Source: a virus. From it: a stretch of DNA of 25,960 nt. Location: IMG/VR virus record IMGVR_UViG_3300033153_002492, positions 1-25,960 of that record; one strand, given 5' to 3'. The translations under genes were made by a program, and so were the position numbers. Below, one piece after another: positions 1,532 through 16,918 of the stretch; within the stretch, counting starts at the first letter, position 1; each line of letters starts with the position of its first letter. A model generated the notes under the pieces. The model was not told the origin of the DNA. It saw only the letters and a list, made by a program, of their open reading frames with translations, and did no database searches.

Positions 1532-2529
1532 TGGGCGGCAGTTTAGGAAAGTCAGATAGCGAAAGCGAAAGTTTTCAAAAAAGTAATGCCTCAGGTACTA
1601 GTGCTGACCAAAGTAGATTTGGTAGTAATACTGGTAGCATGACAGGTTCTAATTTTGACCAAAATGTATGGGGAGGTCAGAGCCCTGCGTTACAAAATTT
1701 GTATGCACAAGCTGGTGGACTGTTTAACCAAACAAATCAAGGCATGCAAAGTCAAATAGGTGCGGTACAAGGTATGCAGAATGTAGCTGACCAAGCTAAT
1801 CCAGCATGGCAACAACAAATGCAAGGTGGCGCATACAAAGATATGGGTTTACAAGACCAGTTGATGGGTTCATTAAACCAATCGATGAATCAACCTAGTG
1901 CTATGACCGATATCAACGCTATGATTATGGGTGGTGAAGGTAATAACTATGCTGATGCTATGAAGCAACAGTATATGGATGACGCTAGTTTAGCACAGCA
2001 AAATATGATGTCTAATATGGACGCAAGAGCTGTAGCTGCCGGCCAGTCAGGCAGTTCGCGTCATGGTATTGCTCAAGCTCAAGGCATGCAAGATATTAAT
2101 AAGAACTTACAGTCTAACTTAGCTCAGACAGGCTTTGGTACATTTGATAAAGACTTAGACCGTAAATTACAGATTGCACAACAAGCTGACCAAGGTACAT
2201 TAGCTCGCCAACAAATGATGAGTGGTATGATTGGCCAACAGCAAGGCGCTATGGACCAAGGCTTACAAGGTGCCCAAAATCAACAGAATCTTGGTATGGG
2301 AACCTTCGCACCATATATGATGCCATGGCAAGCACAAGATGCTTATAGCCAATCTGTTGGTGGACCTACTGTGTTAAGTGGTGGTGATCAATTTGGTAGT
2401 TCATTTGGTAATCAACAAGCATCGTCTCAAGCTACTAATGACTGGAATGCTAGTAGTATGGGCCAAGCTGATTCTGATTCTAAAGGCTTTGGTATTAGTG
2501 GTGGTGTAGGTGGCGGAAAAGGAGGGTAA
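1531..2529 (+). CDS. Gln/Met/Gly/Ser-rich internal virion (ejection-type) protein
   Basis: A 332-residue, low-complexity protein very rich in Gln, Met, Gly, Ser and Asn. It opens with a Ser-rich segment (GGSLGKSDSESESFQ) and ends in a Gly-rich tail. The middle carries a segment AVAAGQSGSSRHGIAQAQG, a composition and motif style I associate with podovirus inner-virion or DNA-ejection proteins. There is no signal peptide or membrane helix. The strong ribosome binding site of the next gene (GGAGGG) lies inside its last codons, so the two are coupled. The function is inferred from composition and place, between the GNAT-like protein and two longer internal virion candidates. Confidence 0.55.
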   Translation: MGGSLGKSDSESESFQKSNASGTSADQSRFGSNTGSMTGSNFDQNVWGGQSPALQNLYAQAGGLFNQTNQGMQSQIGAVQGMQNVADQANPAWQQQMQGGAYKDMGLQDQLMGSLNQSMNQPSAMTDINAMIMGGEGNNYADAMKQQYMDDASLAQQNMMSNMDARAVAAGQSGSSRHGIAQAQGMQDINKNLQSNLAQTGFGTFDKDLDRKLQIAQQADQGTLARQQMMSGMIGQQQGAMDQGLQGAQNQQNLGMGTFAPYMMPWQAQDAYSQSVGGPTVLSGGDQFGSSFGNQQASSQATNDWNASSMGQADSDSKGFGISGGVGGGKGG

Positions 2530-2530
2530 C

Positions 2531-2878
2531 ATGGGTATCAATGTAGTTCCAAATACAACTAGGCCTGAGCCTACATTTTTTGAGATGTTAGGTTCTATAG
2601 GCGGCGGCGGCGGCGGCGGCGCGAACATACCTCAAAGTGGTTTAGCCTCATACCAACCTGCTATGACACAACAAGCCCAACCATTACAAATGGGATTTAC
2701 TGGCGCTGCTCAAGCAGACGACTTACAACGTTATATACAGAACTACTATAAAGATTTAAGTAACCAAGGTGACATGCAAGGTTTAATGAATATGGCGAGA
2801 GCTTTTCAACAACCTACGCCAACTATACAACAAGGTTATCAAAATCCTTATGTTACAGGTTTAATGGGAGCGAAATAA
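2531..2878 (+). CDS. Hypothetical Gln-rich virion-block protein with poly-Gly tract
   Basis: A 115-residue protein starting at the ATG at 2531, which has a strong GGAGGG ribosome binding site a few bases upstream. A GTG at 2510 in the same frame is less likely because it precedes that site. The N-terminal part contains a run of seven glycines encoded by seven consecutive GGC codons, unusual in this AT-rich genome. The remainder is Gln/Tyr/Met-rich (YQPAMTQQAQPLQMGF, QQGYQNPYVTGLMG), like its neighbours. The stop is one base before the next ATG. It is probably a minor internal virion component; no family is recognised. Confidence 0.55.
   Translation: MGINVVPNTTRPEPTFFEMLGSIGGGGGGGANIPQSGLASYQPAMTQQAQPLQMGFTGAAQADDLQRYIQNYYKDLSNQGDMQGLMNMARAFQQPTPTIQQGYQNPYVTGLMGAK
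2600..2620 (+). repeat. (GGC)7 trinucleotide repeat inside a coding region
   Basis: Seven perfect tandem GGC units encode seven consecutive glycines, followed by GCG. This is the longest GC-only run I noticed in an otherwise AT-rich sequence. Such tracts are slippage-prone; unit changes would lengthen or shorten the glycine run without shifting the frame. Confidence 0.9.
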
Positions 2879-2879
2879 C

Positions 2880-4085
2880 ATGGGTGCATTTAGCGAATTT
2901 TTAAGTGCTCGAGCTGAGCGAGATAATCCTGCTTACGCAAGACGAATGGCTTTAGGTAGAGAACAAGAGTACGAGCAAGGACAAAGAAATCTTATGGCTA
3001 AGATGGCAGGCCACATATATGGCCAGCAAGCTCAAGCCGCTGTACCAGATCAATTTAATGCTCGACCAGATGGTCAGCCAATAGAATTTGGCGCTCAGCC
3101 CGATGTACCTGGTGTTACTGCGCAACCAGCCTCTGGGCTCTTTGCTGAAGGTGTGTCAGATGATGTTAAGCTACAGTTAATGAATAAACGTATGCTTGAG
3201 TCAGGTATAGCTGGGTTTAATAAGCAATGGCAAGGTAACCAAGGCAACATGCAGAATAGTATGATGGGTAATCTTGGAGCTATGGCTAGACAGAAGCAAG
3301 CACAAAAGGTAGGCTCTAAGCCAACCTCAGCCATACAAAATTATCTTTATGGTCAAAAGGATCCAGCATTTGCTAAACAACAAATGGCTCTTAAACAAGC
3401 CGGATCTACAAAGATTGACATGAGTCGTTCTGATGAACCTATGACCATGGCTGAATTAAAGAATACTGAGATTGAGGATGGTGAAGGTGGTTGGATTACT
3501 CCTCCTATAGGGTCTACTCCTAGACAAGTAGGTGCATTAGGTGGTAGGGTTAAAGATAAACTATCTGCTGAAGCAGCTGGTAAGACCGCTATGTTACGTA
3601 CAGCTAAAGAATTGTTTCCAGTTATTCAAAGTAAGATGTTTGACTCTTCAGGTAAACCCGATATGTCAGTTATACGAGATGCATTTGCTATTACTTTGGA
3701 CCCAACACCTGGTGACTTTGTATCTAAATACTTTACTAGTGATGAGTCTCATGAAATTGCTAATGCTTTTGAAGTAGGTATACAAGGTATTACTAGAACA
3801 GAAACGGGTGCTGCCATGCCTCCAGAGGAGGTTAGAAATACTCGTAAGAGATTCTTACCTGGCCCAATGGATGGTGATGCAGAGATATTACAAAAATGGA
3901 ATGCTTACCAGTTCTTTATTAATTCTGCTTCAGCTATGATTGATCAAAATAATCGAGATGTTGGATTGTTAACTGAGCAAGTGAATAAAGCTGCAGATGC
4001 TGCATTTGCTCAGACAGCGAAAGATTCTACAAGTTCTTATGACCAAACCGAAGGACCTAAACCAGGATTAAAGTGGGTGGATTAA
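2880..4085 (+). CDS. Putative internal virion protein
   Basis: A 401-residue protein. The N-terminal third is charged and Gln/Ala-rich (ARAERDNPAYARRMALGREQ, then repeated QQAQ and MGN/MQN segments). The C-terminal two thirds look more globular, with helical stretches such as AAGKTAMLRTAKELFPVIQSK and a central FAITLDPTPGDFVSKYF segment. No signal peptide or membrane helix. It lies in a run of same-strand genes with 1-2 base spacings. Proteins of this size and composition just before a 700-residue partner are typical of the internal-virion/ejection set in podoviruses. This assignment is positional; I cannot identify a family. Confidence 0.5.
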   Translation: MGAFSEFLSARAERDNPAYARRMALGREQEYEQGQRNLMAKMAGHIYGQQAQAAVPDQFNARPDGQPIEFGAQPDVPGVTAQPASGLFAEGVSDDVKLQLMNKRMLESGIAGFNKQWQGNQGNMQNSMMGNLGAMARQKQAQKVGSKPTSAIQNYLYGQKDPAFAKQQMALKQAGSTKIDMSRSDEPMTMAELKNTEIEDGEGGWITPPIGSTPRQVGALGGRVKDKLSAEAAGKTAMLRTAKELFPVIQSKMFDSSGKPDMSVIRDAFAITLDPTPGDFVSKYFTSDESHEIANAFEVGIQGITRTETGAAMPPEEVRNTRKRFLPGPMDGDAEILQKWNAYQFFINSASAMIDQNNRDVGLLTEQVNKAADAAFAQTAKDSTSSYDQTEGPKPGLKWVD

Positions 4086-4086
4086 T

Positions 4087-6237
4087 ATGACTAGGTATGC
4101 AGAAGATGCACAAGGTAATAGAGTAGCTTATCGTCAGGCTATAGATAATCATGGTAATAAGAGTTGGCATCCAGTTGAAGAACAGACTGGTCTTCAGACT
4201 GTTAGAGGAGCTAATCCTGATAAACGTCCAGATTATCGTGAGCAGCATCGTCAAACAGTCGATGAAATGAATAAGTATGAGAAGGAGGTATCTTCTCGTG
4301 GTCCTGAAGCATATGCTCGTATGAAAGAAGCTAGAGATATGCCGTTTCTAAATAAGTCTGCCATTGTTGCAGGTCGTGAATCCGACAAGTTAATGGCAGG
4401 TGCTGGGGATGTTGGAGATTTCTTGCAAGATGTTGTATTACCTAAAGGACGTACAGGTATAAGAGCTTTTGACATATTTGATAAACATAGGAAAGCTTTA
4501 GCTGACACACCTATAGAGAGAACTATTGCTCGTGCTGAGGACCAAGGAAGTAAAGACGAGGTTTATAGAGAATTCGATGAAAATAAAGGTGGTGCAGCTA
4601 TTGCAGCTATGGCCCCTTATCTTGTATCTGGAGCCACTGCCGGTCCACTTGCTACGAAGACCGCACAGAGTGCAGTGACAAATCTTGCTAAAGGTGCACA
4701 AGCCGGTATAAGGTCAGGTAAAGGTTTGTTCTCTAGAGGAGTTGACAAACTAGCATCTGGCACAGCTTTTCCATTTTTAGGTAAAAAGATGAAAAAAGAG
4801 TGGACAGATCCAATGCTTTTAAAGTCTATTGCTAAAGGTAATAGACCTCCAAAAGGAGAGACTTGGAGAAAAGGTTTCTTAGGAGATGTATTAGGAGGTG
4901 GAGGTTTGGGTTTAGTTGAAGGAGGTATACATTACGATAATAACCCTATTGAAGGCTCAATAGCAGGAATGGGTGGCTCTGTAACAGGTAGATTTTTACG
5001 TCCATTTTTAAGTAAACGGCCTGTAAGTTATAGTTCAGCAGATCAAAAAATAATCCAAGAAGCCGAAGGCCTAGGTATGGATTTCTTTCCAGGTGGAAAG
5101 TATGGACATCGAGGTGATCAAGCTTTTGAAGCAGGTTTACGTAGTAGTAAGACTTGGGGTGAGCCCCTTGCTAGATATGATAGAGCTAACGCCGTTGCTA
5201 TGAATCGTCAAGCTTATAAAGCCATGGGTGTTCCTAAAGATAAAATTGACCAAATGACTCCTGAGGCATTACACTCTCATGTGACTGGTTTAAAGAAAGA
5301 GTATGAAACCCTTGTAGATGGTAGTACAGGTCGATTCTCTTCTGACAGTATTAATAAGATTAGAAAAGGTGGTAAAAGTTTTATAAACGACTTCAGTGAA
5401 GCAGGTATGAAGGCTAAAGGCGTAGTCGATTCTAGGCTTAATGACATCATGGGTAGAGTGCATAATACTAGAGATATGCTTACAGGTAAATATAGACCTG
5501 CCACATTCAGTGGAAAAGATTATCAGTCAATGTCTCAATCTATTAAGGATGAGTTAGATGGTCTTTATAAGAATAACGATATGGTCTCTTATAATGCTCT
5601 TAAGAAAGTACAAAAAGAGTTAGACAATGCTATGGATAACGGCATATCTTATGGAGGCAAAACCTCTTCAGCAGATTGGAAAGATTTAAATGAACGATAT
5701 GCTATGTCAAGGCTACTGATTGATAAAGGTATGGATATAACGGGTAAGTTTGATGCAGAGCAATTTGGTAAATACCTAATGTCTAAAGATGCTTATCGTA
5801 CTTTGACAGGTCAAGGGGGTCGTATCAAACCTCTTCAGAAGATGGCAAGAGCAAATTATTTATCTAAAGGTGAAGCTGGGTCTGATATGACAGGAACAGG
5901 TTTTGGAGACCATAGAGGTAAGATGTCTCATATGCAAGGATTCCTAACTGAAGGATGGGGTCGTAATATGCCTATGATTGATGCAGCTTATCTTAGTATG
6001 TATAAAAAAGGTTGGCCTGCTAGACATGGTCTATTAGGTATGGGCCGTAGTGGTGGAGTGTATGATCCTTTAACCATTATGAGAGCTCAAGCTCAAGGTA
6101 ATCAGCAGCATCCTATAGCGGTACAGAAAGTTAGAGAAACTAAAGACGCTACCGAGAAGTCTTTAACTAATATGGCTGATTGGACCGATGAAAAGTTATC
6201 TGAATTAGAGAAGTTCAAGAGAAGTTTGTTTGAATAG
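4087..6237 (+). CDS. Large internal virion/DNA-ejection protein (putative)
   Basis: A 716-residue protein, the last gene of the plus-strand structural block. After a charged N-terminus there is a hydrophobic Ala/Gly-rich stretch at roughly residues 168-200 (AAIAAMAPYLVSGATAGPLA) and another Gly-rich weakly hydrophobic stretch near 265-280, which could contact or cross a membrane during DNA injection. The C-terminal 400 residues are largely helical and charged, with repeated Lys-rich segments. No lysozyme or transglycosylase motif is visible. It is followed by the convergent junction with the replication arm. Role as a DNA-ejection protein is inferred from size, composition and place. Confidence 0.5.
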   Translation: MTRYAEDAQGNRVAYRQAIDNHGNKSWHPVEEQTGLQTVRGANPDKRPDYREQHRQTVDEMNKYEKEVSSRGPEAYARMKEARDMPFLNKSAIVAGRESDKLMAGAGDVGDFLQDVVLPKGRTGIRAFDIFDKHRKALADTPIERTIARAEDQGSKDEVYREFDENKGGAAIAAMAPYLVSGATAGPLATKTAQSAVTNLAKGAQAGIRSGKGLFSRGVDKLASGTAFPFLGKKMKKEWTDPMLLKSIAKGNRPPKGETWRKGFLGDVLGGGGLGLVEGGIHYDNNPIEGSIAGMGGSVTGRFLRPFLSKRPVSYSSADQKIIQEAEGLGMDFFPGGKYGHRGDQAFEAGLRSSKTWGEPLARYDRANAVAMNRQAYKAMGVPKDKIDQMTPEALHSHVTGLKKEYETLVDGSTGRFSSDSINKIRKGGKSFINDFSEAGMKAKGVVDSRLNDIMGRVHNTRDMLTGKYRPATFSGKDYQSMSQSIKDELDGLYKNNDMVSYNALKKVQKELDNAMDNGISYGGKTSSADWKDLNERYAMSRLLIDKGMDITGKFDAEQFGKYLMSKDAYRTLTGQGGRIKPLQKMARANYLSKGEAGSDMTGTGFGDHRGKMSHMQGFLTEGWGRNMPMIDAAYLSMYKKGWPARHGLLGMGRSGGVYDPLTIMRAQAQGNQQHPIAVQKVRETKDATEKSLTNMADWTDEKLSELEKFKRSLFE

Positions 6238-6340: not shown

Positions 6341-7417
6341 TTATGAAGTTAGCCATCTGTCACAAGTAAGATGAAAAGGTATTCCGTATTCAGTAAGGTA
6401 AGCGAATGAGCAAGTCACCATCCCGCCAATGTATTGATCAGGAAAGTCCGCAACATGTTGTTTATCCAGCTTCGTGCCAGGCGCTACACCATCTACAGTC
6501 TTGCCATTTGGAAGTCTCATCGTTAATACCGCTGAGCCGTCTTTACCAGTATGAATATCGATTACTTCGTATTCAGCATCATATCGATACTTAATCTTTA
6601 ATAACCCTTTAGAACGTTTACCAGCTTGATAACCTTGACCATCGAGTCTCATCATAAGACCCTCATATCCTTGTTGTCTTACGGTATTAAATAACTTTGA
6701 TGTCTCATGTTTATTCTTTTGATACCAATATGGCTCTATTATAATATTCGGCTTACTATCTGATTGGGCTTGAGTATATCTTGTAATATCTACAAATCTT
6801 TCCACAAATGGTCTATCTTCAACTATATCATACACATGGTAATTCAAATCTCTAGTTGCATCTTGCTTACGCTTGATTCTAGAGTTAATATCTTTAAGCT
6901 CCATGCCATGGATATATACTTCACCATCTACAGTTTGGCCTTCTTTTAACCAATCCATCTGCTCCATAATATGGTCAAGAGTATCGATAGGTTTACCATT
7001 ACGTGTATAAGCTAGAAGGCCTCCGTTCTGTCTAGTGACTAGCATACGGTTACCATCAAGTTTACGTTGAAGAACAGCGCCTTTAGTATCAACACTATTT
7101 TGCTTATTAAATTGCTGAGCCAACATGGGCCTGAATAAATTAAGATCATTTTGGTTTTCATATTTATGAGCTTCTTCAATATTCTCTCTATAACCTTTAG
7201 CTCTTTGTTTAGATATACGAGACTTGATACGTAATACCATCTGTTCTCGTATGGTACGTCCACTTTTATTTAATTCAACTTGTTCAATTCGCTCTTGCAT
7301 CTTACCATTTAACTGCCCATAATGTATAATTACACGGGCAGAGTCAATCATAGCGCTTATACTCCATACTTGTATAGCTCCTGTTGCGGTTTTCTTATAC
7401 AATGTTATACTCTTCAT
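6341..7417 (-). CDS. ATP-dependent DNA ligase with N-terminal WGR-like domain
   Basis: A 358-residue enzyme, close to the length of T7 ligase. The nucleotidyltransferase motifs are all visible: motif I KLDGNR at 119-124 with K119 as the adenylated lysine, DGEVY at 164-168, YHVYDI around 193-198, YEGLM at 251-255, and motif V LKIKY at 273-277; an OB-fold domain follows. Residues 4-45 (LYKK...VWSI...VIIHYGQLNGK) look like a WGR-type DNA-binding domain, which some phage ligases carry. It would seal nicks during replication and repair. The start has a GGGAG ribosome binding site. It is the last gene of the minus-strand cluster and has its own candidate promoter just upstream. Confidence 0.93.
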   Translation of the reverse strand: MKSITLYKKTATGAIQVWSISAMIDSARVIIHYGQLNGKMQERIEQVELNKSGRTIREQMVLRIKSRISKQRAKGYRENIEEAHKYENQNDLNLFRPMLAQQFNKQNSVDTKGAVLQRKLDGNRMLVTRQNGGLLAYTRNGKPIDTLDHIMEQMDWLKEGQTVDGEVYIHGMELKDINSRIKRKQDATRDLNYHVYDIVEDRPFVERFVDITRYTQAQSDSKPNIIIEPYWYQKNKHETSKLFNTVRQQGYEGLMMRLDGQGYQAGKRSKGLLKIKYRYDAEYEVIDIHTGKDGSAVLTMRLPNGKTVDGVAPGTKLDKQHVADFPDQYIGGMVTCSFAYLTEYGIPFHLTCDRWLTS

Positions 7418-7472: not shown

Positions 7473-7901
7473 TTACACTCTGGATAATATCCATTTACGA
7501 CCATTGGACTCCCAAAGCTCTTTTCCACTGACAGAGTAATCTTCGTTAAAAATAATACGTTCTATACTAGTTAGTAATAAAGCTTTTACACAAGAGATAC
7601 AAGGGGCCGTAGTGCAATATATTGTGTGAGCCTCAAATGGTTTCTCTAATGTTACTAGTGCAGAGATCTCTGCATGACTAGCTTGACACTTGTCTAGACA
7701 CGTACCACTCGCTGCCAATGCTCCTTTACAAGGTTTATCTAGACAAGACATTTGACCAGGTCCTAAACCATTATAGCCAGTAGAAAGAATACGTCCTCTC
7801 TCACTGACTATAACTGCACCTACCTTACGTCTAGTACACTCACCCCTTTTAGAGATAGCTCTAGCTATTTCCATGAAGTTTTCATCTTTTGAAGGTCTCA
7901 T
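7473..7901 (-). CDS. dCMP deaminase (zinc-dependent)
   Basis: A 142-residue enzyme converting dCMP to dUMP. The zinc site is clear: HAE in the segment CQASHAEISAL and PC-x2-C in TTAPCISCVKALL; the N-terminal KRGECTRRKVGAVIV and TGYNG segments are typical of the family, as is a Cys-rich insertion between them. The start at 7901 is chosen because its ATG overlaps the TGA of the upstream TS-fold gene (ATGA) and has GGAG eight bases before it; an upstream in-frame ATG at 7922 lacks such a site. It sits in the nucleotide-modification cluster, where it would shape the dCMP/dUMP balance; no canonical thymidylate synthase is visible in the window to use its product. Confidence 0.92.
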   Translation of the reverse strand: MRPSKDENFMEIARAISKRGECTRRKVGAVIVSERGRILSTGYNGLGPGQMSCLDKPCKGALAASGTCLDKCQASHAEISALVTLEKPFEAHTIYCTTAPCISCVKALLLTSIERIIFNEDYSVSGKELWESNGRKWILSRV

Positions 7902-8668
7902 AAAGGTGACTCCTGTAACCATTGACCAAAGTCGGATTTAAAGTTATCACTTATTAAGTCTATCACACTAGTGATTTCAGGATAATCAACGGGTGTGAAA
8001 GAGCTATAACCATCTAGTAACACCTTTTCAATCATGCTCCAATGCGGTTCATAAATATGGAGTGAATTAGCTTCAAATACCATTCGACCTCTAGGTAATT
8101 TCAAAGTAAGTGCAACCATCTCCCATAACCACCAATATGTAGGTAAGTCAGTACCTAAACCAAATACAGCATCAGAACTTCTGAATGATACCTGAATATC
8201 TAATGCACCATTAATGACTCTAAACTGTGGGCCTTTGCTACAGACAACATCCTTATTCCCGACCCATAGATGGTCTGTATTATTCATAGGTAGATAGGTT
8301 TGTCTTGAGTCAAGGTCATTTAACAACGTACTCACTACCCAATCAAATCCAGACATACCATTAATGTACGTTGGGTTAAACCAGTAATACCCATAATTAG
8401 AGAATATCTCACCTGTATCTTGCTGGATTTTACTCCACATCTTAGCATACTTAGCTATTCTGTCATCATATGGATCTGCATTTAGATACCATTGGAACTC
8501 TCTTTTAGCGTAACTAAGAGGATAGTTACGTGCTGAGTACGTAGACCAAGGATTATCGATCGTTCCTTGGAAACAGTCTAACTCTTTTATCTTCTGACCT
8601 CGAGGGGAGCTCTCTCTACCATGCTCCATTATTTCCTTCCATATATCATATACGACATAGTTTTTCAT
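7898..8668 (-). CDS. Thymidylate-synthase-fold enzyme, predicted dCMP hydroxymethylase
   Basis: A 256-residue TS-family protein. Landmarks fall at the spacing of E. coli thymidylate synthase, shifted by three: nucleophile C143 (C146), R163 (R166), D166 (D169), H204 and Y206 (H207, Y209), plus the E57/W60 helix. The residue at the position of the uracil-reading Asn177 is Asp, D174 (segment GLGTDLPTYW). In T4 dCMP hydroxymethylase the same Asn-to-Asp change gives dCMP specificity. I therefore predict conversion of dCMP to 5-hydroxymethyl-dCMP with methylene-tetrahydrofolate. The neighbours (dNMP kinase, MazG, carbamoyltransferase) fit a cytosine modification pathway. The usual PPC before the nucleophile is replaced by VVC. 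The alternative is a dCMP methylase or divergent dUMP enzyme. The start has a GGAG site. Confidence 0.8.
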   Translation of the reverse strand: MKNYVVYDIWKEIMEHGRESSPRGQKIKELDCFQGTIDNPWSTYSARNYPLSYAKREFQWYLNADPYDDRIAKYAKMWSKIQQDTGEIFSNYGYYWFNPTYINGMSGFDWVVSTLLNDLDSRQTYLPMNNTDHLWVGNKDVVCSKGPQFRVINGALDIQVSFRSSDAVFGLGTDLPTYWWLWEMVALTLKLPRGRMVFEANSLHIYEPHWSMIEKVLLDGYSSFTPVDYPEITSVIDLISDNFKSDFGQWLQESPL

Positions 8669-9137
8669 TTATCTTCTCCACTAATTTTTCATAAGAATCT
8701 TTACGCCAATCGAAATTTATATGGTCTACACCTTGCATATACTCTGAATATAAATCTCGGATTAATTGCTTCTCCTCTGTTATCTTTTTAAGATGGCCAG
8801 AAGGATAGTAAGACTTAGGCTCATGCACACCATCTCCACAAGCATATATAATAACCGCGTATTCAAGCATCTCTTCTAATCGTCTATTAAATAAGATTAA
8901 CTCTAATTCAGGAATACGATCATGGTCATATATAGGTCTAGAAATAGGAGTGACTCTATCCACAATATAACCATTCCGCAATCTCTCAAGTTGCTGACTA
9001 CATGCATCTAGAGCTTGCTGAGTATCACCTGGATTAGGACCACTATGGCTATAAGGTAGAGTAAAATCTACTCTAAGCTTTTCAGCTAAAGTAGACTTAC
9101 CACTTGCATTAGGTCCTTCAAGGATTATCGATTTCAT
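8646..9137 (-). CDS. Deoxynucleoside monophosphate kinase-like P-loop protein
   Basis: A 163-residue protein with a Walker A motif GPNASGKST at residues 8-16 and a DR motif at 60-61 (YIVDRVTPIS), the arrangement of thymidylate-kinase-like and phage dNMP kinases. It overlaps the TS-fold gene by 23 bases and the MazG gene by 20, so all three are co-translated. In this context the likely substrate is the modified monophosphate made by the TS-fold enzyme, as T4 gp1 phosphorylates hydroxymethyl-dCMP; that is inference. It could instead be a general dTMP/dCMP kinase or a polynucleotide kinase-like protein. Confidence 0.75.
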   Translation of the reverse strand: MKSIILEGPNASGKSTLAEKLRVDFTLPYSHSGPNPGDTQQALDACSQQLERLRNGYIVDRVTPISRPIYDHDRIPELELILFNRRLEEMLEYAVIIYACGDGVHEPKSYYPSGHLKKITEEKQLIRDLYSEYMQGVDHINFDWRKDSYEKLVEKINEKLCRI

Positions 9138-9525
9138 GTAATAATATCCCCGCTATTCTATCTTCAGGTGAAATCCATCCTTCAGGCTTAATTGCATCAG
9201 CGGCATTATAACCTTCACGACCAGCTTTTATACCTTTCTTCTTTCCCATATTTGCATCCATCACTGCAGTAAAACACTCATGGAGCAAGTCAGCTGTCAT
9301 ACCCATTTTATAAGCTACACCATAAGTGAATACAAGGTTATCTATTAATGCATCTAATGCACCAATAAAATCATTATGTTCACAAGCTTCAAGGAACTCT
9401 CCAACTTCTTCTTGCATTTGGTGGTGAGACAATCGAAATTCCTCTTCATCTTGTATGTGAACAGGTCTCTCATTAATACCTAAGATTTCCTTATTAAACT
9501 TTGCTACTTGGTTAAACTTATTCAT
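9118..9525 (-). CDS. MazG-type nucleotide pyrophosphohydrolase
   Basis: A 135-residue all-helical protein with the metal-binding pattern of the MazG/all-alpha NTP pyrophosphatase family: E39, E40 and E43 in QMQEEVGEF and D58/D62 in LDALIDN. Such enzymes cleave (d)NTPs to monophosphate and pyrophosphate. Here it lies between the carbamoyltransferase (4-base ATGA overlap) and the dNMP kinase. A phage that replaces cytosine needs a dCTPase to drain dCTP and supply dCMP, which is a reasonable inferred role. Other phage MazG proteins have been linked to (p)ppGpp or dUTP, so substrate is open. Confidence 0.78.
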   Translation of the reverse strand: MNKFNQVAKFNKEILGINERPVHIQDEEEFRLSHHQMQEEVGEFLEACEHNDFIGALDALIDNLVFTYGVAYKMGMTADLLHECFTAVMDANMGKKKGIKAGREGYNAADAIKPEGWISPEDRIAGILLHEIDNP

Positions 9526-11102
9526 TTCTTCACCTCTATTAATGTTACGAATCGATTAGTTGTGTCATGCTTTTGTTGATACTCATGAGCTTTCTTTATA
9601 TCACTTGCTGTTAAGCAAATAGGTTGTCCATGTATATTGAAGCTCGTATTTATCAATGGACCAAATTTATTAACTGATGGATATACAGGATGGTCTTCAT
9701 TAAGTACTTGAGGTCTTCCAGTAAAATAGTCCTCAAAAGGTAAATAATGTTTTACACCATCGATTTGTCTTCTAGTTTCCTTATAAGGTAATGACATAAT
9801 CATATGTTTTACAGATTTTATCACTTTATATGTGTGAGTAAATGTAAATTCATAGGTTCTTTCAGTCATAACCGGAGCCATAGGCATGTCTGTATCTCTA
9901 CCATTAGCTTTGTTTATAGCCTTACAGTTCCCCAAATATGGTAAAGCTATTGTGCTTGTATTACAATACGCTCGCTCACCAAACTCCATCTTATCTCTTA
10001 TCACATTTACAATAAAGTCATTACCTAAATAAAATTGTAAGCTTTCATTTAAATCTTGCACATAATGGAGCTTGTTACTTAATATACCTAATAGGTTTCT
10101 TTTACCCCAACATAGGTTATCAGGAATGATAAAGTCTTTATTATGATACTTATATACTCCTAAACCTGCTCCGCTATCACCAGATAAGGGCATCACGCCT
10201 ACTTTATTCTGAATAGCTTTAGCTATAGATCCATTTAGTTGGACATTCATAAATACACCACCAACTAGTAGTACATTTTTTATATCATATTTAAAGATGA
10301 AATGTTTTATACATTTCTCAACTATTCTTTGAAGGACAAAAGCTATTTGAGCCTTTTCTCTAGGTTCAAAATGTTTAGATAACATATCTATTACGGATTT
10401 GTGAACATAAGATAGTGCACTTAATGAGAATATTGGGTCACTCTCTTCATTGATAGGTATAGTGAGTCTTGATATATATTCACTAGATAAACTATCTGCA
10501 ATAGTTATTAAGCTATCAATCTCTGAAGGGTAAACACGTGAGGCAGCCGCATTAAGTTTCCACTCATCTTGATTCATCTTTAAGCCTACATAGTCTGTAG
10601 CATATTGATAAAGCAACCCAAGTGAGGCCTCATAATTATGGACAGAATGCACCGGCTCAGGTACACCATTTATTATCTTATAAATCGTAAATACCTCACC
10701 ATAATTACCAAATCCATCAGCAGTAATGATATGACAATCATCTGGTACTTCATCATTGAAATAAGCTAGTGCAGAGTAAGCGTGGGCTTTATGATGTGTG
10801 AAGTCTATATTTAAAGACTTTAAAGTGTGATTAGGGAATCGTCTATTAATATATGTAGGATTCCAATGTCGTTCAGACATCCTATCTATATCAGCTGTAG
10901 GCTCCCAATGGGATACGTATATAGTAACATTATCAGTTATATCATCCCATTTCATTAACTCTTCTATAGCTTCCATAGGGAATTGAGAGTCTGATTTCAA
11001 TTTGGATATTCTTTCATTCATATAACCATTAACTATTTTATTATCTTTAATAAGGATAGCTGAGCTACCATGGCCCAAAGTTAGTACTAAAGAATCTTTC
11101 AT
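9522..11102 (-). CDS. TobZ/NodU-type carbamoyltransferase, predicted DNA-base modifier
   Basis: A 526-residue two-domain carbamoyltransferase. The N-terminal ASKHA/Kae1-like domain has the metal motif HHKAHA at 103-108 and TADGFGNYGE at 127-136; GGVFMN at 281-286 and GDSGAGLG at 308-315 continue it. The C-terminal YrdC-like domain has FGERAYCNTS at 374-383 (a divergent form of the family's GPRALGxRS), MPMAP at 406-410 and LINTSFNIHGQPI at 483-495. Family members transfer the carbamoyl group of carbamoyl phosphate to a hydroxyl through a carbamoyl-adenylate. With a predicted dCMP hydroxymethylase, a kinase and MazG alongside, the likely acceptor is the hydroxymethyl group of cytosine. From memory, a metagenomic association study (MetaGPA) linked such a phage enzyme to 5-carbamoyloxymethylcytosine. 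Whether it acts on nucleotide or DNA cannot be read from the sequence. Confidence 0.88.
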   Translation of the reverse strand: MKDSLVLTLGHGSSAILIKDNKIVNGYMNERISKLKSDSQFPMEAIEELMKWDDITDNVTIYVSHWEPTADIDRMSERHWNPTYINRRFPNHTLKSLNIDFTHHKAHAYSALAYFNDEVPDDCHIITADGFGNYGEVFTIYKIINGVPEPVHSVHNYEASLGLLYQYATDYVGLKMNQDEWKLNAAASRVYPSEIDSLITIADSLSSEYISRLTIPINEESDPIFSLSALSYVHKSVIDMLSKHFEPREKAQIAFVLQRIVEKCIKHFIFKYDIKNVLLVGGVFMNVQLNGSIAKAIQNKVGVMPLSGDSGAGLGVYKYHNKDFIIPDNLCWGKRNLLGILSNKLHYVQDLNESLQFYLGNDFIVNVIRDKMEFGERAYCNTSTIALPYLGNCKAINKANGRDTDMPMAPVMTERTYEFTFTHTYKVIKSVKHMIMSLPYKETRRQIDGVKHYLPFEDYFTGRPQVLNEDHPVYPSVNKFGPLINTSFNIHGQPICLTASDIKKAHEYQQKHDTTNRFVTLIEVKK

Positions 11103-11141
11103 TTATAATCTCCAGTTTGCACGTCCTTGTGCGATTAATAT

Positions 11142-11972
11142 TTACCAGTCGTTTAATAAAGAATCAACATCTTTATCGTCTGATGCTGACTCTTTCTCAA
11201 AAGGGATGTCATCATCCTCTTCATCTACCTTTGGTAAAGCTCTTTTAGATTCACCTTTAGACTTGTTCTCTAAAGCTAGTCCACCTGAATCCCACTCTTT
11301 AGCTTGGCTTCTCTTATGAGCAGTAGGACCATGCTTCTCTCCAAGCATTCCCATTAGGTCAAACTCAAGCTTTGGAACACTTGCGTCTTCATCAAAATAG
11401 ATTTTTGTCACTGCAAATTGAGGTCCTGGAATCCCTTTAGATGCAAGTAACTTACCATAATTTGTAAATGCTTTAAGGCTATTAACTGTAATAGTCATTA
11501 ACCATAATTTGCAGTTATCTGCATCAGCTGAGAAGTCTTTTGCTTTAGCTACATAAATATGCTTACTATCTTTACAAGCTTTAGCTTTACCTCCAGACAT
11601 GCTTTTTGCAGAGCCCCAAATTTGATTAGGGCACTTAATACAGTTCTCATGCTGAGGCTCATTTATCCAATGGTCAGGGTTAACCCCATCCATAGATGAG
11701 CAATCAGGTGGATCGTTGCTATCAGGTGAATATCCATCGATATAAAAAGTGTGTGCTAAACCTCTTTCAGGACTCAAACCAATAATTATCACATTGATTT
11801 CTTGACCCTCTTTGGTCTCATCTTCACCCTCTTTAAAGCGAAAGACTTTACCTTTAGTTGAGATGCGAGGCACTCCGCCCGTTGCCACTTCCATATCTTG
11901 GGTAGTATTAACAACGGTCCCTTCAGCCATCATATCTTTAAGATAATCTGGTATTACTATGTCTTTACTCAT
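11142..11972 (-). CDS. Putative single-stranded DNA-binding protein with Cys cluster and acidic tail
   Basis: A 276-residue protein with a beta-rich N-terminal half, a Cys/His cluster (PPDCSS..., ENCIKCPN, KACKDSKH) that could bind zinc, and a highly acidic C-terminus ending in DVDSLLNDW. An acidic tail ending in an aromatic residue is the hallmark of phage and bacterial ssDNA-binding proteins (T7 gp2.5, T4 gp32, SSB), where it contacts other replication proteins. The place, in a replication/modification operon, agrees. I recall similar proteins in podoviruses with this PolA/primase/VRR-NUC set. A clear OB-fold signature cannot be confirmed by eye. Good AGGAA ribosome binding site before the ATG. 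Confidence 0.6.
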   Translation of the reverse strand: MSKDIVIPDYLKDMMAEGTVVNTTQDMEVATGGVPRISTKGKVFRFKEGEDETKEGQEINVIIIGLSPERGLAHTFYIDGYSPDSNDPPDCSSMDGVNPDHWINEPQHENCIKCPNQIWGSAKSMSGGKAKACKDSKHIYVAKAKDFSADADNCKLWLMTITVNSLKAFTNYGKLLASKGIPGPQFAVTKIYFDEDASVPKLEFDLMGMLGEKHGPTAHKRSQAKEWDSGGLALENKSKGESKRALPKVDEEDDDIPFEKESASDDKDVDSLLNDW

Positions 11973-11984
11973 TTTTCTTTCCTC

Positions 11985-12386
11985 TTACTTCGTAGGCTTT
12001 CTAAAATTCATGGCATACTCTTCAACCCAATCAATACCGGCTTCAGCCACATTTACACCGTCATCAATTAATTCCTTCGTATGGGTCTTATTAACATGCG
12101 AAGTGAATAAACCAAAGTCACCTGTCTTGATAGCATAATCAATACGAGCTTGTTTAGCATCTTCACCTGCACTTAATCTTGCATAAGTCTTAATGGTTTT
12201 AAAAGCTGTACCATCTTCAGACTTAAATGAATCAATTCCAGTCTCATTACTGATCTTTAACATTAATGTCTCAATCTCTAGTAACTCTAACTTTCTTTGT
12301 TTTTCAAAGGTATTATACTTAACACGTCGAGCATCAAGCTCTTCACGCAAGTGTCTATATTCTTTGATTAAAACTTTGATATCCAT
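11985..12386 (-). CDS. Hypothetical coiled-coil phage protein, first gene of the modification operon
   Basis: A 133-residue protein. The start is set at 12386 rather than 12392 because AAGGAG then has a normal spacing; it would abut the other ATG. Residues 1-50 form a charged heptad-like helix (YRHLREELDARRVKYNTFEK...); the rest contains FKSEDGTAFKTIKTYARLS and the SHVNKTHTKELID segment, a pattern I have seen in small conserved phage proteins encoded next to ssDNA-binding genes. No enzymatic motif is visible. It is directly downstream of a strong promoter and upstream of the ssDNA-binding gene, suggesting a recombination or replication accessory role. Confidence 0.6.
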   Translation of the reverse strand: MDIKVLIKEYRHLREELDARRVKYNTFEKQRKLELLEIETLMLKISNETGIDSFKSEDGTAFKTIKTYARLSAGEDAKQARIDYAIKTGDFGLFTSHVNKTHTKELIDDGVNVAEAGIDWVEEYAMNFRKPTK

Positions 12387-12412
12387 GGTCATCTCCTTTC
12401 AATTAAAATAAT

Positions 12413-12467
12413 ATTATATCACAGGTTAAACAAAGAGTACAATTGTTTTTGCAATGTATCTCAAAGT
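12413..12467 (-). promoter_or_regulatory. Promoter P1 of the modification operon with upstream CATTG element
   Basis: Reading the minus strand: TATAAT at 12418-12413 preceded by TGA (extended -10), a 17-bp spacer, and TGTACT at 12441-12436 as -35. Ten bases further upstream lies CATTG (minus strand of 12452-12456), and one helical turn beyond it CTTTG (12462-12466), the same layout as at 20474 and 22718. The upstream half-site extends into the last codons of the helicase gene. Confidence 0.75.
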
Positions 12468-13825
12468 ATATCTTCATTATAAATTTCTAACATAGACTGA
12501 GCAGTGATTTCAGTCTCATCTAATTTTTTGAATATTAAACTCTCAAATTTAGATGAGATTAATTTTATTATCACTTGTCTTTTAGTTTGGCCAATACGTC
12601 TTATGCGTCTTATAGCCTGTCTTAGTGTCTCGTTACCCATGATTGGTCCAAAGAAAACTAACGTATGCGATTTAGTTAAAGTAATACCATGGGACATAGT
12701 GACTACTTGAGCTACTAACACTCCTTCATCTGTAGACTGAAAATTATCAATGATTTCTTTACGTCTATTTAAGGATACTTTTCCATATATTATATCCGTA
12801 TGGATTTTCTTCTTAGTAAGATACTCTTGAATTATCTTGATACTCTCTACTGATTGACAAAAGATAACTAACTTTAGTCCTGCTTCATTATATATACTTA
12901 CCAATTCATCAAGCTTTGGGTTGATATTTGTCCTAGATATAACCCCTTCCTCAGTCTTAGTAGAGCCAGTTAATATTTGTATCAAGCGAATCATTTTTAC
13001 ACCCGCTGTGGCTGCAGTTATTAATCCTTCTTTAACTTCAGCAATTTGATGCTTTAACATTTCCTTAAATAATTTAACTGTCTCTTTAGGTAGCTCAACA
13101 TATCTTTCTTCAAAGACTAATTCAGGTAAATCTACACAATCTTCTAAAGAGAATTGTATAGCAGGTGATAAGGTTTTATTTACAATTATCTCAGCACCTT
13201 CTCTAGGAATATACTCATACATATTCACTTGGTAATATATGAGCTCTCTATATCTACTGAAATATTTAGTAGGTAAGTTGACAGGATTTACTGCTTTAGC
13301 TATACCAAAAGAGTTGATCAAGCCACCCGCCACTGGGGACCCTGATAATCCATATACAGCCTTGACTGTTTTAGCCATACGTTGCATGGCTTTAGACCTT
13401 TTGGATTGAGCGTTAGCAAAGGTAGTCACTTCATCTATGATAAGCACATCAGGTTTGAGGTTAATTAACTCCTTCTCAAAATTTCGGACTGCATCGGTGT
13501 TAGTCACATATATATTAGAGTCTGAGTTAAGGCTCTCTAAACGTTGCGACCTCGTACCATGCACAACCACGGCCTTCCTATATGGACAGATAGCTTCAAT
13601 CTCTTTAATCCATACCACATGGAGAGTAGACAGGGGCGCTATGATAAGGATCTTCTTAATCTTATTAGCATGGATTAACATGTCAATAAACCATAAAGAG
13701 GTTGCTGTCTTGCCTGTCCCCATATCTAACCAAAGATATGCTCTCTTATTAGACAACATAAACTTAAGAGTCTTCTCTTGGTGGGCATAAGGACGCATAT
13801 CACCAAAATATTGATAATCATCCAT
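12461..13825 (-). CDS. SNF2-type SF2 helicase/translocase
   Basis: A 454-residue DNA helicase/translocase. Motif I is MGTGKT at 35-40, motif Ia IIAPLSTLHVVW, motif II DEVT at 131-134, motif III GLSGSP at 159-164, and motif VI LRQAIRRIRRIGQT near the C-terminus with the arginine finger. The IGQT ending and spacing mark the SNF2/DEAD-like phage helicases that accompany VRR-NUC nucleases and PolA in many podoviruses. Expected role: replication or recombination on branched DNA. Its start shares one base with the stop of the small upstream gene (TAATG). Confidence 0.93.
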   Translation of the reverse strand: MDDYQYFGDMRPYAHQEKTLKFMLSNKRAYLWLDMGTGKTATSLWFIDMLIHANKIKKILIIAPLSTLHVVWIKEIEAICPYRKAVVVHGTRSQRLESLNSDSNIYVTNTDAVRNFEKELINLKPDVLIIDEVTTFANAQSKRSKAMQRMAKTVKAVYGLSGSPVAGGLINSFGIAKAVNPVNLPTKYFSRYRELIYYQVNMYEYIPREGAEIIVNKTLSPAIQFSLEDCVDLPELVFEERYVELPKETVKLFKEMLKHQIAEVKEGLITAATAGVKMIRLIQILTGSTKTEEGVISRTNINPKLDELVSIYNEAGLKLVIFCQSVESIKIIQEYLTKKKIHTDIIYGKVSLNRRKEIIDNFQSTDEGVLVAQVVTMSHGITLTKSHTLVFFGPIMGNETLRQAIRRIRRIGQTKRQVIIKLISSKFESLIFKKLDETEITAQSMLEIYNEDIL

Positions 13826-14010
13826 TATGTAGCCCTCTTTAATAATTTGATAAGATAAGCTTTTTTATCTTTAAACCAGGGTGGGTAAGAACCTGTGACA
13901 TGCCGCTTACCTCTCACTCCTATGGTTATAACAGTCTCATATTCATGAAAGATAACGGTACATTTGACTTTTCTAAAAGTCAGATCCTTCTTCTTTATTA
14001 TTGGTTCCAT
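13825..14010 (-). CDS. Hypothetical small basic protein between VRR-NUC and SNF2 helicase
   Basis: About 61 residues from the ATG at 14010, chosen because AGGA lies seven bases upstream; an in-frame ATG at 14034 has no such site. The gene begins within the last codons of the VRR-NUC gene and its TAA overlaps the helicase ATG by one base, so it is translationally coupled on both sides. It is Lys/Arg-rich, predicted beta strands followed by a basic helix (WFKDKKAYLIKLLKRAT), compatible with a DNA-binding helper. No family recognised. Confidence 0.6.
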   Translation of the reverse strand: MEPIIKKKDLTFRKVKCTVIFHEYETVITIGVRGKRHVTGSYPPWFKDKKAYLIKLLKRAT

Positions 14011-14305
14011 CTTTGATTCCTCGTATAAAAGCATCTAGGACGGCCTTATCTTTCCCATATATGGTGAAAGCGTATGCTCCTGATGCATTGATTTTTGAGA
14101 TTTCGTGTTGTTGTAGTCTAGTCAATTTACCATTAGGCATCTTAACTTCTATTGCATAAAATTTACTGTCTATGGCCATCACCAGGTCAGGAATACCTCT
14201 CCTGGAAGTGTACTGACCTTGAGGTACCTTAAATAAGTATAACTTATCACCTAAAAATTTCTTTAAATAATCTTGTATCCATCTTTGGACATCTGATTCT
14301 TTCAT
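13973..14305 (-). CDS. VRR-NUC domain nuclease
   Basis: A 110-residue stand-alone VRR-NUC protein of the PD-(D/E)XK superfamily. The core is GIPDLV (D40), AIEVK (E53, K55) and a Gln in LTRLQQHE (Q65). Stand-alone phage members are structure-selective nucleases, probably acting on branched DNA with the adjacent SNF2-type helicase. The ATG has CTGGAG as ribosome binding site, which is part of a sequence able to pair with an upstream copy of CCAGAGT in the leader. Confidence 0.92.
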   Translation of the reverse strand: MKESDVQRWIQDYLKKFLGDKLYLFKVPQGQYTSRRGIPDLVMAIDSKFYAIEVKMPNGKLTRLQQHEISKINASGAYAFTIYGKDKAVLDAFIRGIKDGTNNKEEGSDF

Positions 14306-14310
14306 ATGCG

Positions 14311-14382
14311 CTCCAGAGTTTATTTTAAAATTTAACTAGTATAGTTACCAGTAAGAAAATACTCTGGTAACTATCTATTATA
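14311..14382 (-). promoter_or_regulatory. Structured leader of the VRR-NUC gene with candidate SD-pairing switch
   Basis: An 11-bp perfect inverted repeat (ATAGTTACCAG at 14341-14351, CTGGTAACTAT at 14364-14374, 12-base loop) lies between the upstream nuclease stop and the VRR-NUC start. On the transcript, CCAGAGT (minus strand of 14361-14367) can pair either within this hairpin or with ACTCTGG (minus strand of 14313-14319) that holds the ribosome binding site. A TATAAT occurs at 14382-14377 on the minus strand without a convincing -35. There is no U-tract, so a terminator is unlikely. Confidence 0.45.
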
Positions 14383-14384
14383 GG

Positions 14385-15080
14385 TTATTTTTTAACAGGA
14401 CACTGACCACTAGTCGCTGCGCACCAATTACAATATTGGTTCTTTTTGAACTCAAAGTCACCATCTTGGTTGACAATTGTATGAGCATTGTCAAAATCAG
14501 ATTTGATAGACTCTAATTGGTCTCTACTAAACTCAACTTTGATAGTCTTCTTATGCTCTACAAATAAGTAAGAACTCGTTATCTTATTAATCTTAGGATA
14601 TAGACTAAATAACATGGCAGCTGTCAATTTTAACTGAGTTGTAGGACCATCTTCATAGTCACGTACTTTACCAGATTTGAAGTCAACAATAAGTAAGGTC
14701 TCTTTATCAAGAAATACTAAGCAGTCAATGATAGCTCTATATTTTACAATATGGGGCTTATCAAACCAGTCACACTTTAACCACTCTTGGTTAGTGGCTA
14801 TCTGTTTTTCTGCGAATATGTTACCATTAGACGCCTTATGCATGCCTTCTAATATAGGTATAGCATTCGTTGTGTGCGCATTCATGGAAGGCTTACTACC
14901 ATTATCTTTAAGGTAATTAATATAATCCTCAAGTTGCTTATGAATTATATTTCCCTTAACAAAAGCGGGATTATTAGAGTCATCAGGAAACTCTTTAGTA
15001 ATATATTTAAGCTTGAACTTCAATGGACAAGCCTCATAATCTGATAAACGACTAAAACTAAGTGCAATCATACTACTCAT
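14385..15080 (-). CDS. RecB/Cas4-type PD-(D/E)XK exonuclease with Fe-S cluster
   Basis: A 231-residue nuclease. Visible core: GNIIH (H47), D119 in AIIDCLV, D133 and K135 in IVDFKSGK, and Q149 in TTQLKLTAAML. One N-terminal cysteine (C18, YEACPLKF) and three C-terminal ones (C217, C220, C227: C-x2-C-x6-C) match the 4Fe-4S arrangement of AddB and Cas4. It probably degrades DNA 5' to 3' or resects ends for recombination or RNA primer removal, filling the role of a T7-like exonuclease. Its ATG overlaps the stop of the polymerase gene by one base. Confidence 0.9.
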   Translation of the reverse strand: MSSMIALSFSRLSDYEACPLKFKLKYITKEFPDDSNNPAFVKGNIIHKQLEDYINYLKDNGSKPSMNAHTTNAIPILEGMHKASNGNIFAEKQIATNQEWLKCDWFDKPHIVKYRAIIDCLVFLDKETLLIVDFKSGKVRDYEDGPTTQLKLTAAMLFSLYPKINKITSSYLFVEHKKTIKVEFSRDQLESIKSDFDNAHTIVNQDGDFEFKKNQYCNWCAATSGQCPVKK

Positions 15081-16918
15081 TACAAACTCCTTATATCTGC
15101 GAAATTATCACCTATACCACCATCAAAAATAAGGGGTACAGTTTGCTCAAAACCAAGCAATTTACCATAATCATAATGGTTCATATACTCAATAACATCT
15201 TTACCAATTGCATCTGCATTCTCTTCAGGAATGAAGTAAGCTATCGAGTCATGCACTTGGCTTACTAGAATAAGGTCAGGCCAACCTTTATTTATCACTC
15301 CAATAGCTGCGTATGTAAGCATCGAACCACCACCTTGGATAGGGTGGTTAATAGCTGAAGATTCACCTTTCCAGCCAAATGATTCGATAGCATATCTCCA
15401 TCCCCCAAATGCTGAAGCATATCCTCTAGATTTACCTAAACTAATGGCATTCTTCCAGTATTTGACAACCCCAGGATATTTACGTTTGAATGAGGATAAA
15501 TAAGATTGAGCTGTCTGTATAGATATATCATATCCATAGGTTGCAAAGAATTTACCGGCTAATGCTTTAGCACCAATACGATAGAAACTAGATAGACCAG
15601 TAAGTTTACCTGCTTGTCTTTGTTCTACAATCTCTTCAGGTTTACCATTCATATTTGCTTTGACAATGTCTGCATAAGGAGTACCAAAGATTTCCTCAGT
15701 TAAGTCAGAATGTAAGTCTACACCCTCACTATATGATTCAATCATGGTAGGCTCGGGTGCTTCAATCGCCATTACACGTCCCTCTTGTGCACCAAAATCC
15801 ATGTATAGCACCTTATATCCTGCTGGTGCCTTCATGCATCGTTTAACATTTTTGTCTTTACGAGGAAGCTGGTGTAAAGCGATAGATGTCTGCCAAGCTT
15901 GTTTCTTAAAGAATTTAGTTGTGTAAGTCATACGCCCTGTGATAGTGGATAATAACCTTGGTTGCCCATGTATTTTATCTTGGCTTAAGTAATTAGTGCT
16001 ATTCTCAAATCCTTTTACATACTTGCTTAACATGGTAGCACAAGTTTTGTACTCCATAATTAGGTTTAACTCAGGTCTGTCTTTGGCATATATTTGATGT
16101 AGTCTTAATAGATTCTCTGCTGATGTGGAGGGTGCACCTTTAGGGGTAAGTCCTTGAGGAGTAAGTTTCCAATCATCAAATAATAGTCTAGCTAATTGCT
16201 TAGGTGAGGTTATCACAGAACCTTCTATTCTTAGCTCATCTAATAATTCGAGCTGACGTAATTCAAGAGTCTCTTTATATTTAATCACTTCACCCATGTC
16301 AACAGGTATGCCTACCACATAGCCTTCAGCAATAGGAAATATAGAATTACAAGCTATTATATAACCTCTATAGTTATCACGCTTATGCAAATGGCCTTCA
16401 AGATATTTAGCAATTAGATATGTGGCCTCAACATCTAATTTATTACGATCAAGCCAATATTCAAAGTTTTCACCTGCTGTTATTTTCTGTTTCTTTACAT
16501 CAATAAATTCTTCTAATTTAGGCCAATCTTTTAAATATCTTTTAGCGCTATTAGCAAGTGAATAAGATAATTTTAATCTGTCAGCTTTTTGACCATTCAC
16601 TAGCCATTTGTTTAGAATTGCTGTGTCTCTCCATTTGATGTGTCTTAAGCGGTCAGGTCCAACGAAAGCAATTAGAAAGCTTACATCAAATATGGTGTTA
16701 GTACAGTATACTTCTTTACCTTCTAATAACTCTAACAAATCAATCACTTGACTTCTAAAATCAGGGTTTTTGTGATTTAAACAAGCCACTAAGCCCTTTG
16801 GACCCCATGCTGATACAGCTGTTATTTCTGATTCTCCGGTAAGAACTCTATATGGTTCTAATGCAAAGGGTTTATCAGTAGCTTGTATAGGCGCGGTTTC
16901 GATATCTAAACTATACAT
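15080..16918 (-). CDS. polA: Family A DNA polymerase with 3'-5' exonuclease domain
   Basis: A 612-residue replicative polymerase. Exo I LDIET (D5, E7), Exo II NTIFDVSFL (D78), Exo III RNKLDVEAT (D162, with Arg where T7 has Tyr). Polymerase motif A is YMDFGAQEGRV (D374, E379); motif B runs from R434 through K438 to Y446; motif C is QVHDSIAY (D557, with Ser in place of the usual Glu). The position equivalent to E. coli Phe762 is L442, and the Gly after the O-helix Tyr is Arg447. Leu at this position is the variant reported as abundant in marine virioplankton. There is no 5'-3' exonuclease domain. The start shares a base with the stop of the preceding gene. Confidence 0.96.
   Translation of the reverse strand: MYSLDIETAPIQATDKPFALEPYRVLTGESEITAVSAWGPKGLVACLNHKNPDFRSQVIDLLELLEGKEVYCTNTIFDVSFLIAFVGPDRLRHIKWRDTAILNKWLVNGQKADRLKLSYSLANSAKRYLKDWPKLEEFIDVKKQKITAGENFEYWLDRNKLDVEATYLIAKYLEGHLHKRDNYRGYIIACNSIFPIAEGYVVGIPVDMGEVIKYKETLELRQLELLDELRIEGSVITSPKQLARLLFDDWKLTPQGLTPKGAPSTSAENLLRLHQIYAKDRPELNLIMEYKTCATMLSKYVKGFENSTNYLSQDKIHGQPRLLSTITGRMTYTTKFFKKQAWQTSIALHQLPRKDKNVKRCMKAPAGYKVLYMDFGAQEGRVMAIEAPEPTMIESYSEGVDLHSDLTEEIFGTPYADIVKANMNGKPEEIVEQRQAGKLTGLSSFYRIGAKALAGKFFATYGYDISIQTAQSYLSSFKRKYPGVVKYWKNAISLGKSRGYASAFGGWRYAIESFGWKGESSAINHPIQGGGSMLTYAAIGVINKGWPDLILVSQVHDSIAYFIPEENADAIGKDVIEYMNHYDYGKLLGFEQTVPLIFDGGIGDNFADIRSL

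Follow-up and report, generated by a model that had tools for sequence, protein, structure and literature searches.

A predicted dCMP hydroxymethylase in a carbamoyltransferase operon of an uncultured phage

An uncultured phage harbors a thymidylate synthase (TS)-fold enzyme that is very probably a dCMP hydroxymethylase, encoded in a five-gene operon that would feed the carbamoylation of 5-hydroxymethylcytosine (5hmC) and lead to DNA containing 5-carbamoyloxymethylcytosine. The operon lies in the window, i.e., the whole stretch of 25,960 nucleotides analyzed from the IMG/VR virus record IMGVR_UViG_3300033153_002492. The assignment draws on the sequence identity of the five genes, an active site aspartate, the predicted fold, a conserved cassette, and an association of the aspartate with the carbamoyltransferase, all of which were established in this analysis. 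The residue signature (Asp177 in E. coli ThyA numbering) and the pathway were described in 2021 (Yang et al. 2021, eLife 10:e70021, PMC8670742), and the window is a further instance of both. The present work adds the correct strand, the cassette, a linkage backed by controls, and a set of named, cultured phages whose DNA can be examined for the product.

Active Site and Fold of the Hydroxymethylase

The gene is encoded on the minus strand and opens with ATG; a plus-strand reading of the same interval was rejected, as stops occur throughout. Its product matches PF00303 (E = 2e-17) and the PHROG thymidylate synthase family (1e-31). In a sequence search of the PDB, T4 dCMP hydroxymethylase is the best match (E = 4e-11) and the CMP hydroxymethylase MilA the next, both ahead of ThyA. 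Local alignments scored against shuffled sequence give z values of about 15 for ThyA and about 24 for T4 gp42, and together with the PF00303 and PDB matches they therefore place the homology far above chance.

Residues E57, W78, I81, Y92, C143, S144, R163, S164, D166, D174, H204, and Y206 correspond to E58, W80, W83, Y94, C146, H147, R166, S167, D169, N177, H207, and Y209 of E. coli ThyA, respectively. Membership in the TS fold is indicated by the PF00303 match combined with the catalytic Cys (C143) and the Arg, Ser, Asp, His, and Tyr residues of the substrate site (R163, S164, D166, H204, and Y206). The first-pass annotation had claimed that C143, R163, D166, H204, and Y206 keep the ThyA spacing and that Asn177 is replaced by D174. 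Both claims hold: the offset is constant at 3 residues, and alignment equates D174 with N177 as well as with D179 of T4 gp42 and the corresponding Asp of MilA. The predicted base-reading geometry of D174 is derived from the alignment and a ligand-free model. The further proposal that this Asp is of the cytosine type agrees with profile, fold, and tree, all of which group the enzyme with dCMP/CMP hydroxymethylases and not with ThyA. An identity as ThyA was rejected on the Asp in place of Asn177 and the Ser in place of His147, as well as by tree and fold.

The triplet ending in the nucleophile (VVC) had also been regarded as non-standard and as a hint of a separate lineage. The motif had been read correctly, but it is not odd, since hydroxymethylases differ at this segment: T4 has FMC, MilA has VAC, and carbamoyltransferase-linked relatives mostly have TVC. 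E. coli ThyA itself has APC, not PPC. Given this variability, VVC was rejected as a lineage mark, and the argument drawn from it finds no support.

A family profile of 41 relatives scores highest with T4 dCMP hydroxymethylase (4.5e-38, 134 bits) and MilA (1.5e-33, 119 bits), followed by ThyA (≤103 bits) and AfhB (9iqu, 78 bits). A structure prediction, as the first-pass annotation had recommended, was obtained for the window protein with 40 relatives as input. The model is confident (mean pLDDT 96.9, pTM 0.93), and its nearest structural matches are the hydroxymethylases MilA and T4 gp42, which rank first in Foldseek. In a second structural aligner, the Z scores are 26.5 for MilA, 23.5 for T4, 22.5 for 9iqc, 22.4 for the best ThyA, and 21.6 for 9iqu; because scores within 1 count as ties, MilA is clearly ahead, while T4 is only slightly above the others.

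The entries 9iqc and 9iqu, which are among the better structural matches, represent a different chemistry on the TS fold, namely the flavin-dependent dCMP 5-hydroxylase of phage HY126 (AfhB), which would yield 5-hydroxycytosine. That the window enzyme is of this type is improbable in light of the profile preference for T4 and MilA over AfhB and the retention of the folate-related catalytic residues of ThyA and dCMP hydroxymethylases (E57, W78, Y92, C143, and D166). In addition, the known substrate of the carbamoyltransferase is a hydroxymethyl group (PMC8670742).

Phylogeny

The putative dCMP hydroxymethylase was placed in a tree of 54 sequences together with gp42, SPO1, and ThyA representatives, as had been called for. 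It falls into an Asp-type clade of 36 rows that includes T4 gp42 (support 98/98), with ThyA outside. The Tevenvirinae gp42s form their own clade (100/100), to which the window enzyme does not belong; instead, it clusters with its IMG/VR relative and two other contigs (100/99), and this clade groups with Xp15 and the Acinetobacter phages with a support of 89/83. The suggestion of a lineage separate from that of T4 is thus correct in that the two occupy distinct clades, but both remain within one Asp-type clade. Because they share this clade, Asp174 looks inherited rather than independently switched. According to the tree, the window enzyme is not a gp42, nor did it arise as an independent mutant of ThyA.

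SPO1 gp29 keeps the Asn and is placed outside the Asp clade, with long branches in the tree (SPO1 and one Bacteroides copy) rendering deep placement uncertain. A SPO1-type dUMP hydroxymethylase was rejected on this position. An ordinary thymidylate synthase or SPO1-type enzyme with a harmless Asn-to-Asp drift would share the fold and the catalytic core, yet this reading is exceedingly improbable: the Asp is invariant in the Asp-clade rows, whereas Asn is found in every ThyA control (see below), and SPO1 gp29 itself retains Asn. Moreover, 5hmdUTP is not a substrate of the carbamoyltransferase assayed in 2021 (PMC8670742), which argues against a dUMP hydroxymethylase.

Operon and Carbamoyltransferase

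Table 1. Genes of the proposed cytosine modification pathway and associated replication genes in the window
Predicted product	Coordinates	Strand	Supporting features
ATP-dependent DNA ligase, next gene downstream	6341..7417	-	PF01068 3e-19; phrog_114 2e-57
Deoxycytidylate deaminase (dCMP to dUMP)	7473..7922	-	PF00383 1.4e-19; phrog_174 dCMP deaminase 1.4e-37; PDB dCMP deaminase 2hvv 2e-15
TS-fold Asp-type pyrimidine (dCMP) hydroxymethylase, predicted	7898..8668	-	256 aa; C143 nucleophile, D174 base-reading, S144 at the ThyA His147 position
Small P-loop kinase-like protein, inferred hydroxymethyl-dCMP kinase	8646..9137	-	163 aa; phrog_761 thymidylate kinase 1.5e-12
NTP pyrophosphatase (MazG/PRA-PH type), inferred dCTP-removing	9118..9525	-	PF01503 8e-7; phrog_18404/671 pyrophosphohydrolase; PDB NTP pyrophosphohydrolase 3nl9 7e-4
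NodU/TobZ-type carbamoyltransferase, inferred 5-hydroxymethylcytosine carbamoyltransferase	9522..11102	-	PF02543 and PF16861 1.4e-16; phrog_1601 1e-55
Family A DNA polymerase, same replication module	15080..16918	-	PF00476 2.5e-42

Five minus-strand genes, encoding the carbamoyltransferase, pyrophosphatase, kinase, hydroxymethylase, and deaminase, overlap end to start (Table 1), a geometry that suggests translational coupling. The end of the hydroxymethylase gene shares 25 bases with the dCMP deaminase gene, and its start overlaps the small kinase gene. A carbamoyltransferase is therefore linked through overlapping genes to an Asp177 TS homologue, a pyrophosphatase, and a dCMP deaminase. This context had been missed in the first-pass annotation. 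The small kinase has sub-threshold cytidylate-kinase and P-loop matches in Pfam and no match at a meaningful E-value in the PDB; its putative assignment is based on the one PHROG match. The DNA ligase gene accompanies the cassette in many relatives, and the best phage matches of the family A DNA polymerase are the same cassette-bearing phages.

The carbamoyltransferase has both its N and C domains (PF02543 and PF16861, respectively), and H103-H104-x2-H107, D129, and D309 are invariant in the alignment. V367, C380, and T382 occupy the positions at which the antibiotic carbamoyltransferase GdmN harbors W, G, and R. Their spacing of 13 and 2 residues is that of W408, G421, and R423 of TobZ, and mapping via GdmN and this spacing would make the two sets equivalent. 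The three TobZ positions were singled out in the 2021 paper, as were Asp177 and position 147 of the TS homologues (PMC8670742). The T382 equivalent is T in 76/77 linked phage rows and the C380 equivalent is C in 65/77, while the comparison set, comprising five distant, unlinked carbamoyltransferases from a bacterial genome scan, has R, G, and R at the V367, C380, and T382 positions.

Distribution of the Cassette and Linkage to Asp177

The cassette is found in the same order in Xanthomonas phage Xp15 and in the Acinetobacter phages MD-2021a, HHU4, and Effie; in these records, the enzyme is labeled thymidylate synthase or hypothetical protein. Dozens of viral contigs also have the cassette. A literature search on the DNA chemistry of Xp15 returned nothing relevant. 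The nearest relative found (58% identity, tblastn) resides on a 42.5 kb IMG/VR contig. There, a dUTPase_2/PRA-PH-like gene (L002, 8720-9136) overlaps the end of the hydroxymethylase gene and replaces the upstream pyrophosphatase, and the stretch examined yielded no dCMP deaminase. The Bacteroides BF phages encode two Asp-type TS copies and a carbamoyltransferase. In Bacteroides phage BF503P4 (L007, 7052-7813 and 9887-10567), one of the Asp-type copies is devoid of the Glu58 and Trp80 equivalents and has a branch length of 5.0; this divergent homologue is perhaps a non-catalytic partner or the bearer of a new activity.

A scan of viral contigs with the single sequence retrieved one relative only, and a profile was used instead. 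Contigs were gathered both with a TS profile and with a carbamoyltransferase profile that is blind to the TS residue, and the two sets were merged; the TS profile was of the Asp type, such that only the carbamoyltransferase-first scan escapes this bias. This carbamoyltransferase is present in 67 contigs or records, of which 62 also have a TS homologue, invariably with Asp177 (62/62). Because some of the counted loci share a contig or are closely related, they do not represent independent events. The TS homologue is absent from the stretch examined in the other 5/67, in some cases because the contig ends. Viral control contigs fetched with E. coli ThyA have Asn177 in 80/80 and His147 in 73/80 cases, and this carbamoyltransferase in 0/80. 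The Asp set has Thr, Asn, or Ser at position 147, where the ThyA controls mostly have His. The ThyA Trp83 position is replaced in the Asp set, mostly by aliphatic residues (Ile, I81, in the window). The resulting rule, backed by controls, is that viral carbamoyltransferases of this clade are accompanied by Asp177 TS homologues. The hydroxymethylase assignment also corrects a likely misannotation as "thymidylate synthase" across many phage records, including those of the cultured Xp15 and Acinetobacter phages.

Three MAG stretches from the bacterial genome scan (L146, L147, and L148; Acidimicrobiia, Patescibacteria, and Epsilonproteobacteria) also harbor a cassette-like carbamoyltransferase and an Asp177 TS homologue, and are probably phage contigs binned with their hosts.

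The linkage bears on the reaction that is catalyzed. If the reductive step of TS were kept, the enzyme would be a dCMP methylase producing 5-methyl-dCMP, as the DNA of phage XP12 (5mdC) would need. W78 (ThyA W80) and D166 are indeed retained, and an Asn-to-Asp ThyA switches from dUMP to dCMP and yields 5mdCMP in vitro (literature quoted in PMC8670742). A methylase nonetheless has little chance of being correct, as a carbamoyltransferase encoded in the same run of overlapping genes implies an acceptor with a hydroxyl group and the characterized relative is inactive on 5mdCTP (PMC8670742). In addition, the residue at the Trp83 position is aliphatic, as in T4 gp42, and the nearest solved structures are hydroxymethylases. 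Because of the carbamoyltransferase cassette, hydroxymethylation is far likelier than methylation.

A dCMP hydroxymethylase could also coexist with a carbamoyltransferase that serves another purpose (e.g., modification of a small molecule or a surface sugar), leaving plain 5hmC in the DNA. NodU/TobZ-type enzymes act on many small molecules, and cyanophage S-SSM7 encodes a more distantly related carbamoyltransferase that is not part of such a cassette. This arrangement is quite improbable here in view of the gene overlap, the recurring linkage, the occurrence of the T382/C380 residues in linked rows only, and the biochemical demonstration for a family member encoded in the same genetic context (PMC8670742). 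Specifically, LC-MS demonstrated that one such carbamoyltransferase converts 5hmC to 5-carbamoyloxymethylcytosine (5cmdC) in DNA, RNA, and hm-dCTP; the characterized enzyme is inactive on 5mdCTP and 5hmdUTP (PMC8670742).

Proposed Pathway

The reactions of the 5hmC carbamoylation pathway, the substrates of the kinase and the pyrophosphatase, and the biological role are inferred. The MazG-like pyrophosphatase would convert dCTP to dCMP, which would be attacked at C6 by C143, with D174 reading the N3/N4 edge of the cytosine. In a 5,10-methylene-THF-dependent reaction, the C5-methylene intermediate would be quenched by water to form 5-hydroxymethyl-dCMP. The small kinase would then phosphorylate hm-dCMP to the diphosphate, and a host kinase would complete hm-dCTP. 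With carbamoyl phosphate and ATP, the carbamoyltransferase would transform the 5-hydroxymethyl group into 5-carbamoyloxymethyl, acting on either hm-dCTP or new DNA, while the dCMP deaminase would channel some of the dCMP via dUMP into dTMP synthesis. The family A DNA polymerase would incorporate the modified nucleotide, and the end product would be phage DNA with 5-carbamoyloxymethylcytosine, presumably protected from nucleases. T4 employs a parallel set consisting of the dCTPase gp56, gp42, the dNMP kinase gp1, and the dCMP deaminase cd.

It is conceivable, albeit doubtful, that carbamoylation takes place at the nucleotide stage, such that the enzyme acts on hm-dCTP and 5-carbamoyloxymethyl-dCTP becomes a direct, ready-made substrate of the family A polymerase, in contrast to T4, which glucosylates its DNA after replication. 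The overlap of the carbamoyltransferase gene with genes for dNMP/dNTP enzymes points in this direction, and the possibility was raised in the 2021 paper following the observation of activity on hm-dCTP (PMC8670742).

Virion Module

The terminase, virion proteins, and ligase of the window (28-6237 and 24647-25798) resemble those of the podovirus Cronobacter phage Ss1 (61% for the terminase and 28-37% for the others), whereas the replication and modification genes (7473-19607) resemble those of Xp15 and the long-tailed Acinetobacter phages. The replication module of Ss1 is of another kind, with a DNA polymerase III alpha and a TS-like gene of its own. These affinities indicate a module exchange between an Ss1-like virion and Xp15/Acinetobacter-like replication-modification genes. 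A 716-aa protein (4087-6237, plus strand) that adjoins the ligase is weakly similar to Ss1 orf23 (28%) and has no PHROG match; it is possibly an ejected internal virion protein. In the terminase large subunit (24647-25958, plus strand), homology is lost after residue 363 and the remaining C-terminal portion is encoded in a different frame up to the contig end, whereas Ss1 has an intact 475-aa protein. A single-base assembly error or a genuine frameshift is the likely cause of the break.

Comparison with Known Systems

The predicted genes and residues of the window fit every part of the 2021 5cmC description that could be tested here. In that description, contigs of cytosine-modified phages carry the same domains, i.e., TS, carbamoyltransferase N/C, PRA-PH, dCMP deaminase, MafB19-like deaminase, and ligase (PMC8670742). 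The window likewise combines on one contig a TS homologue with Asp177, a carbamoyltransferase with N and C domains, a PRA-PH pyrophosphatase, a dCMP deaminase with a MafB19-like match, and a DNA ligase, and it shares the departures at TS position 147 and at the carbamoyltransferase positions equivalent to TobZ W408/G421/R423. It differs in that it belongs to one specific uncultured phage whose virion module is of the podovirus type, has Ser at position 147, where Thr is commoner among relatives, and carries a small kinase gene between the hydroxymethylase and pyrophosphatase genes, none being named in the consulted passages of the 2021 paper (PMC8670742).

Among solved proteins, T4 gp42 (PDB 1b49 and 6a9a) is the best sequence match. 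It shares the base-reading Asp, the catalytic core, and an aliphatic residue at the ThyA Trp83 position with the window enzyme, yet the two are only about 23% identical and belong to separate clades. T4 glucosylates its 5hmC, whereas the pathway of the window would carbamoylate it. MilA (PDB 5jnh and 5b6d) has the closest fold and an Asp at the same place, with about 22% identity, but acts on ribo-CMP in mildiomycin biosynthesis. Xp15 (gp36), Effie, HHU4, and MD-2021a share the cassette order, a homologous replication module, and Asp177 with the window; in contrast, their enzymes are about 35% identical to that of the window, and their virion module is long-tailed rather than podovirus-type.
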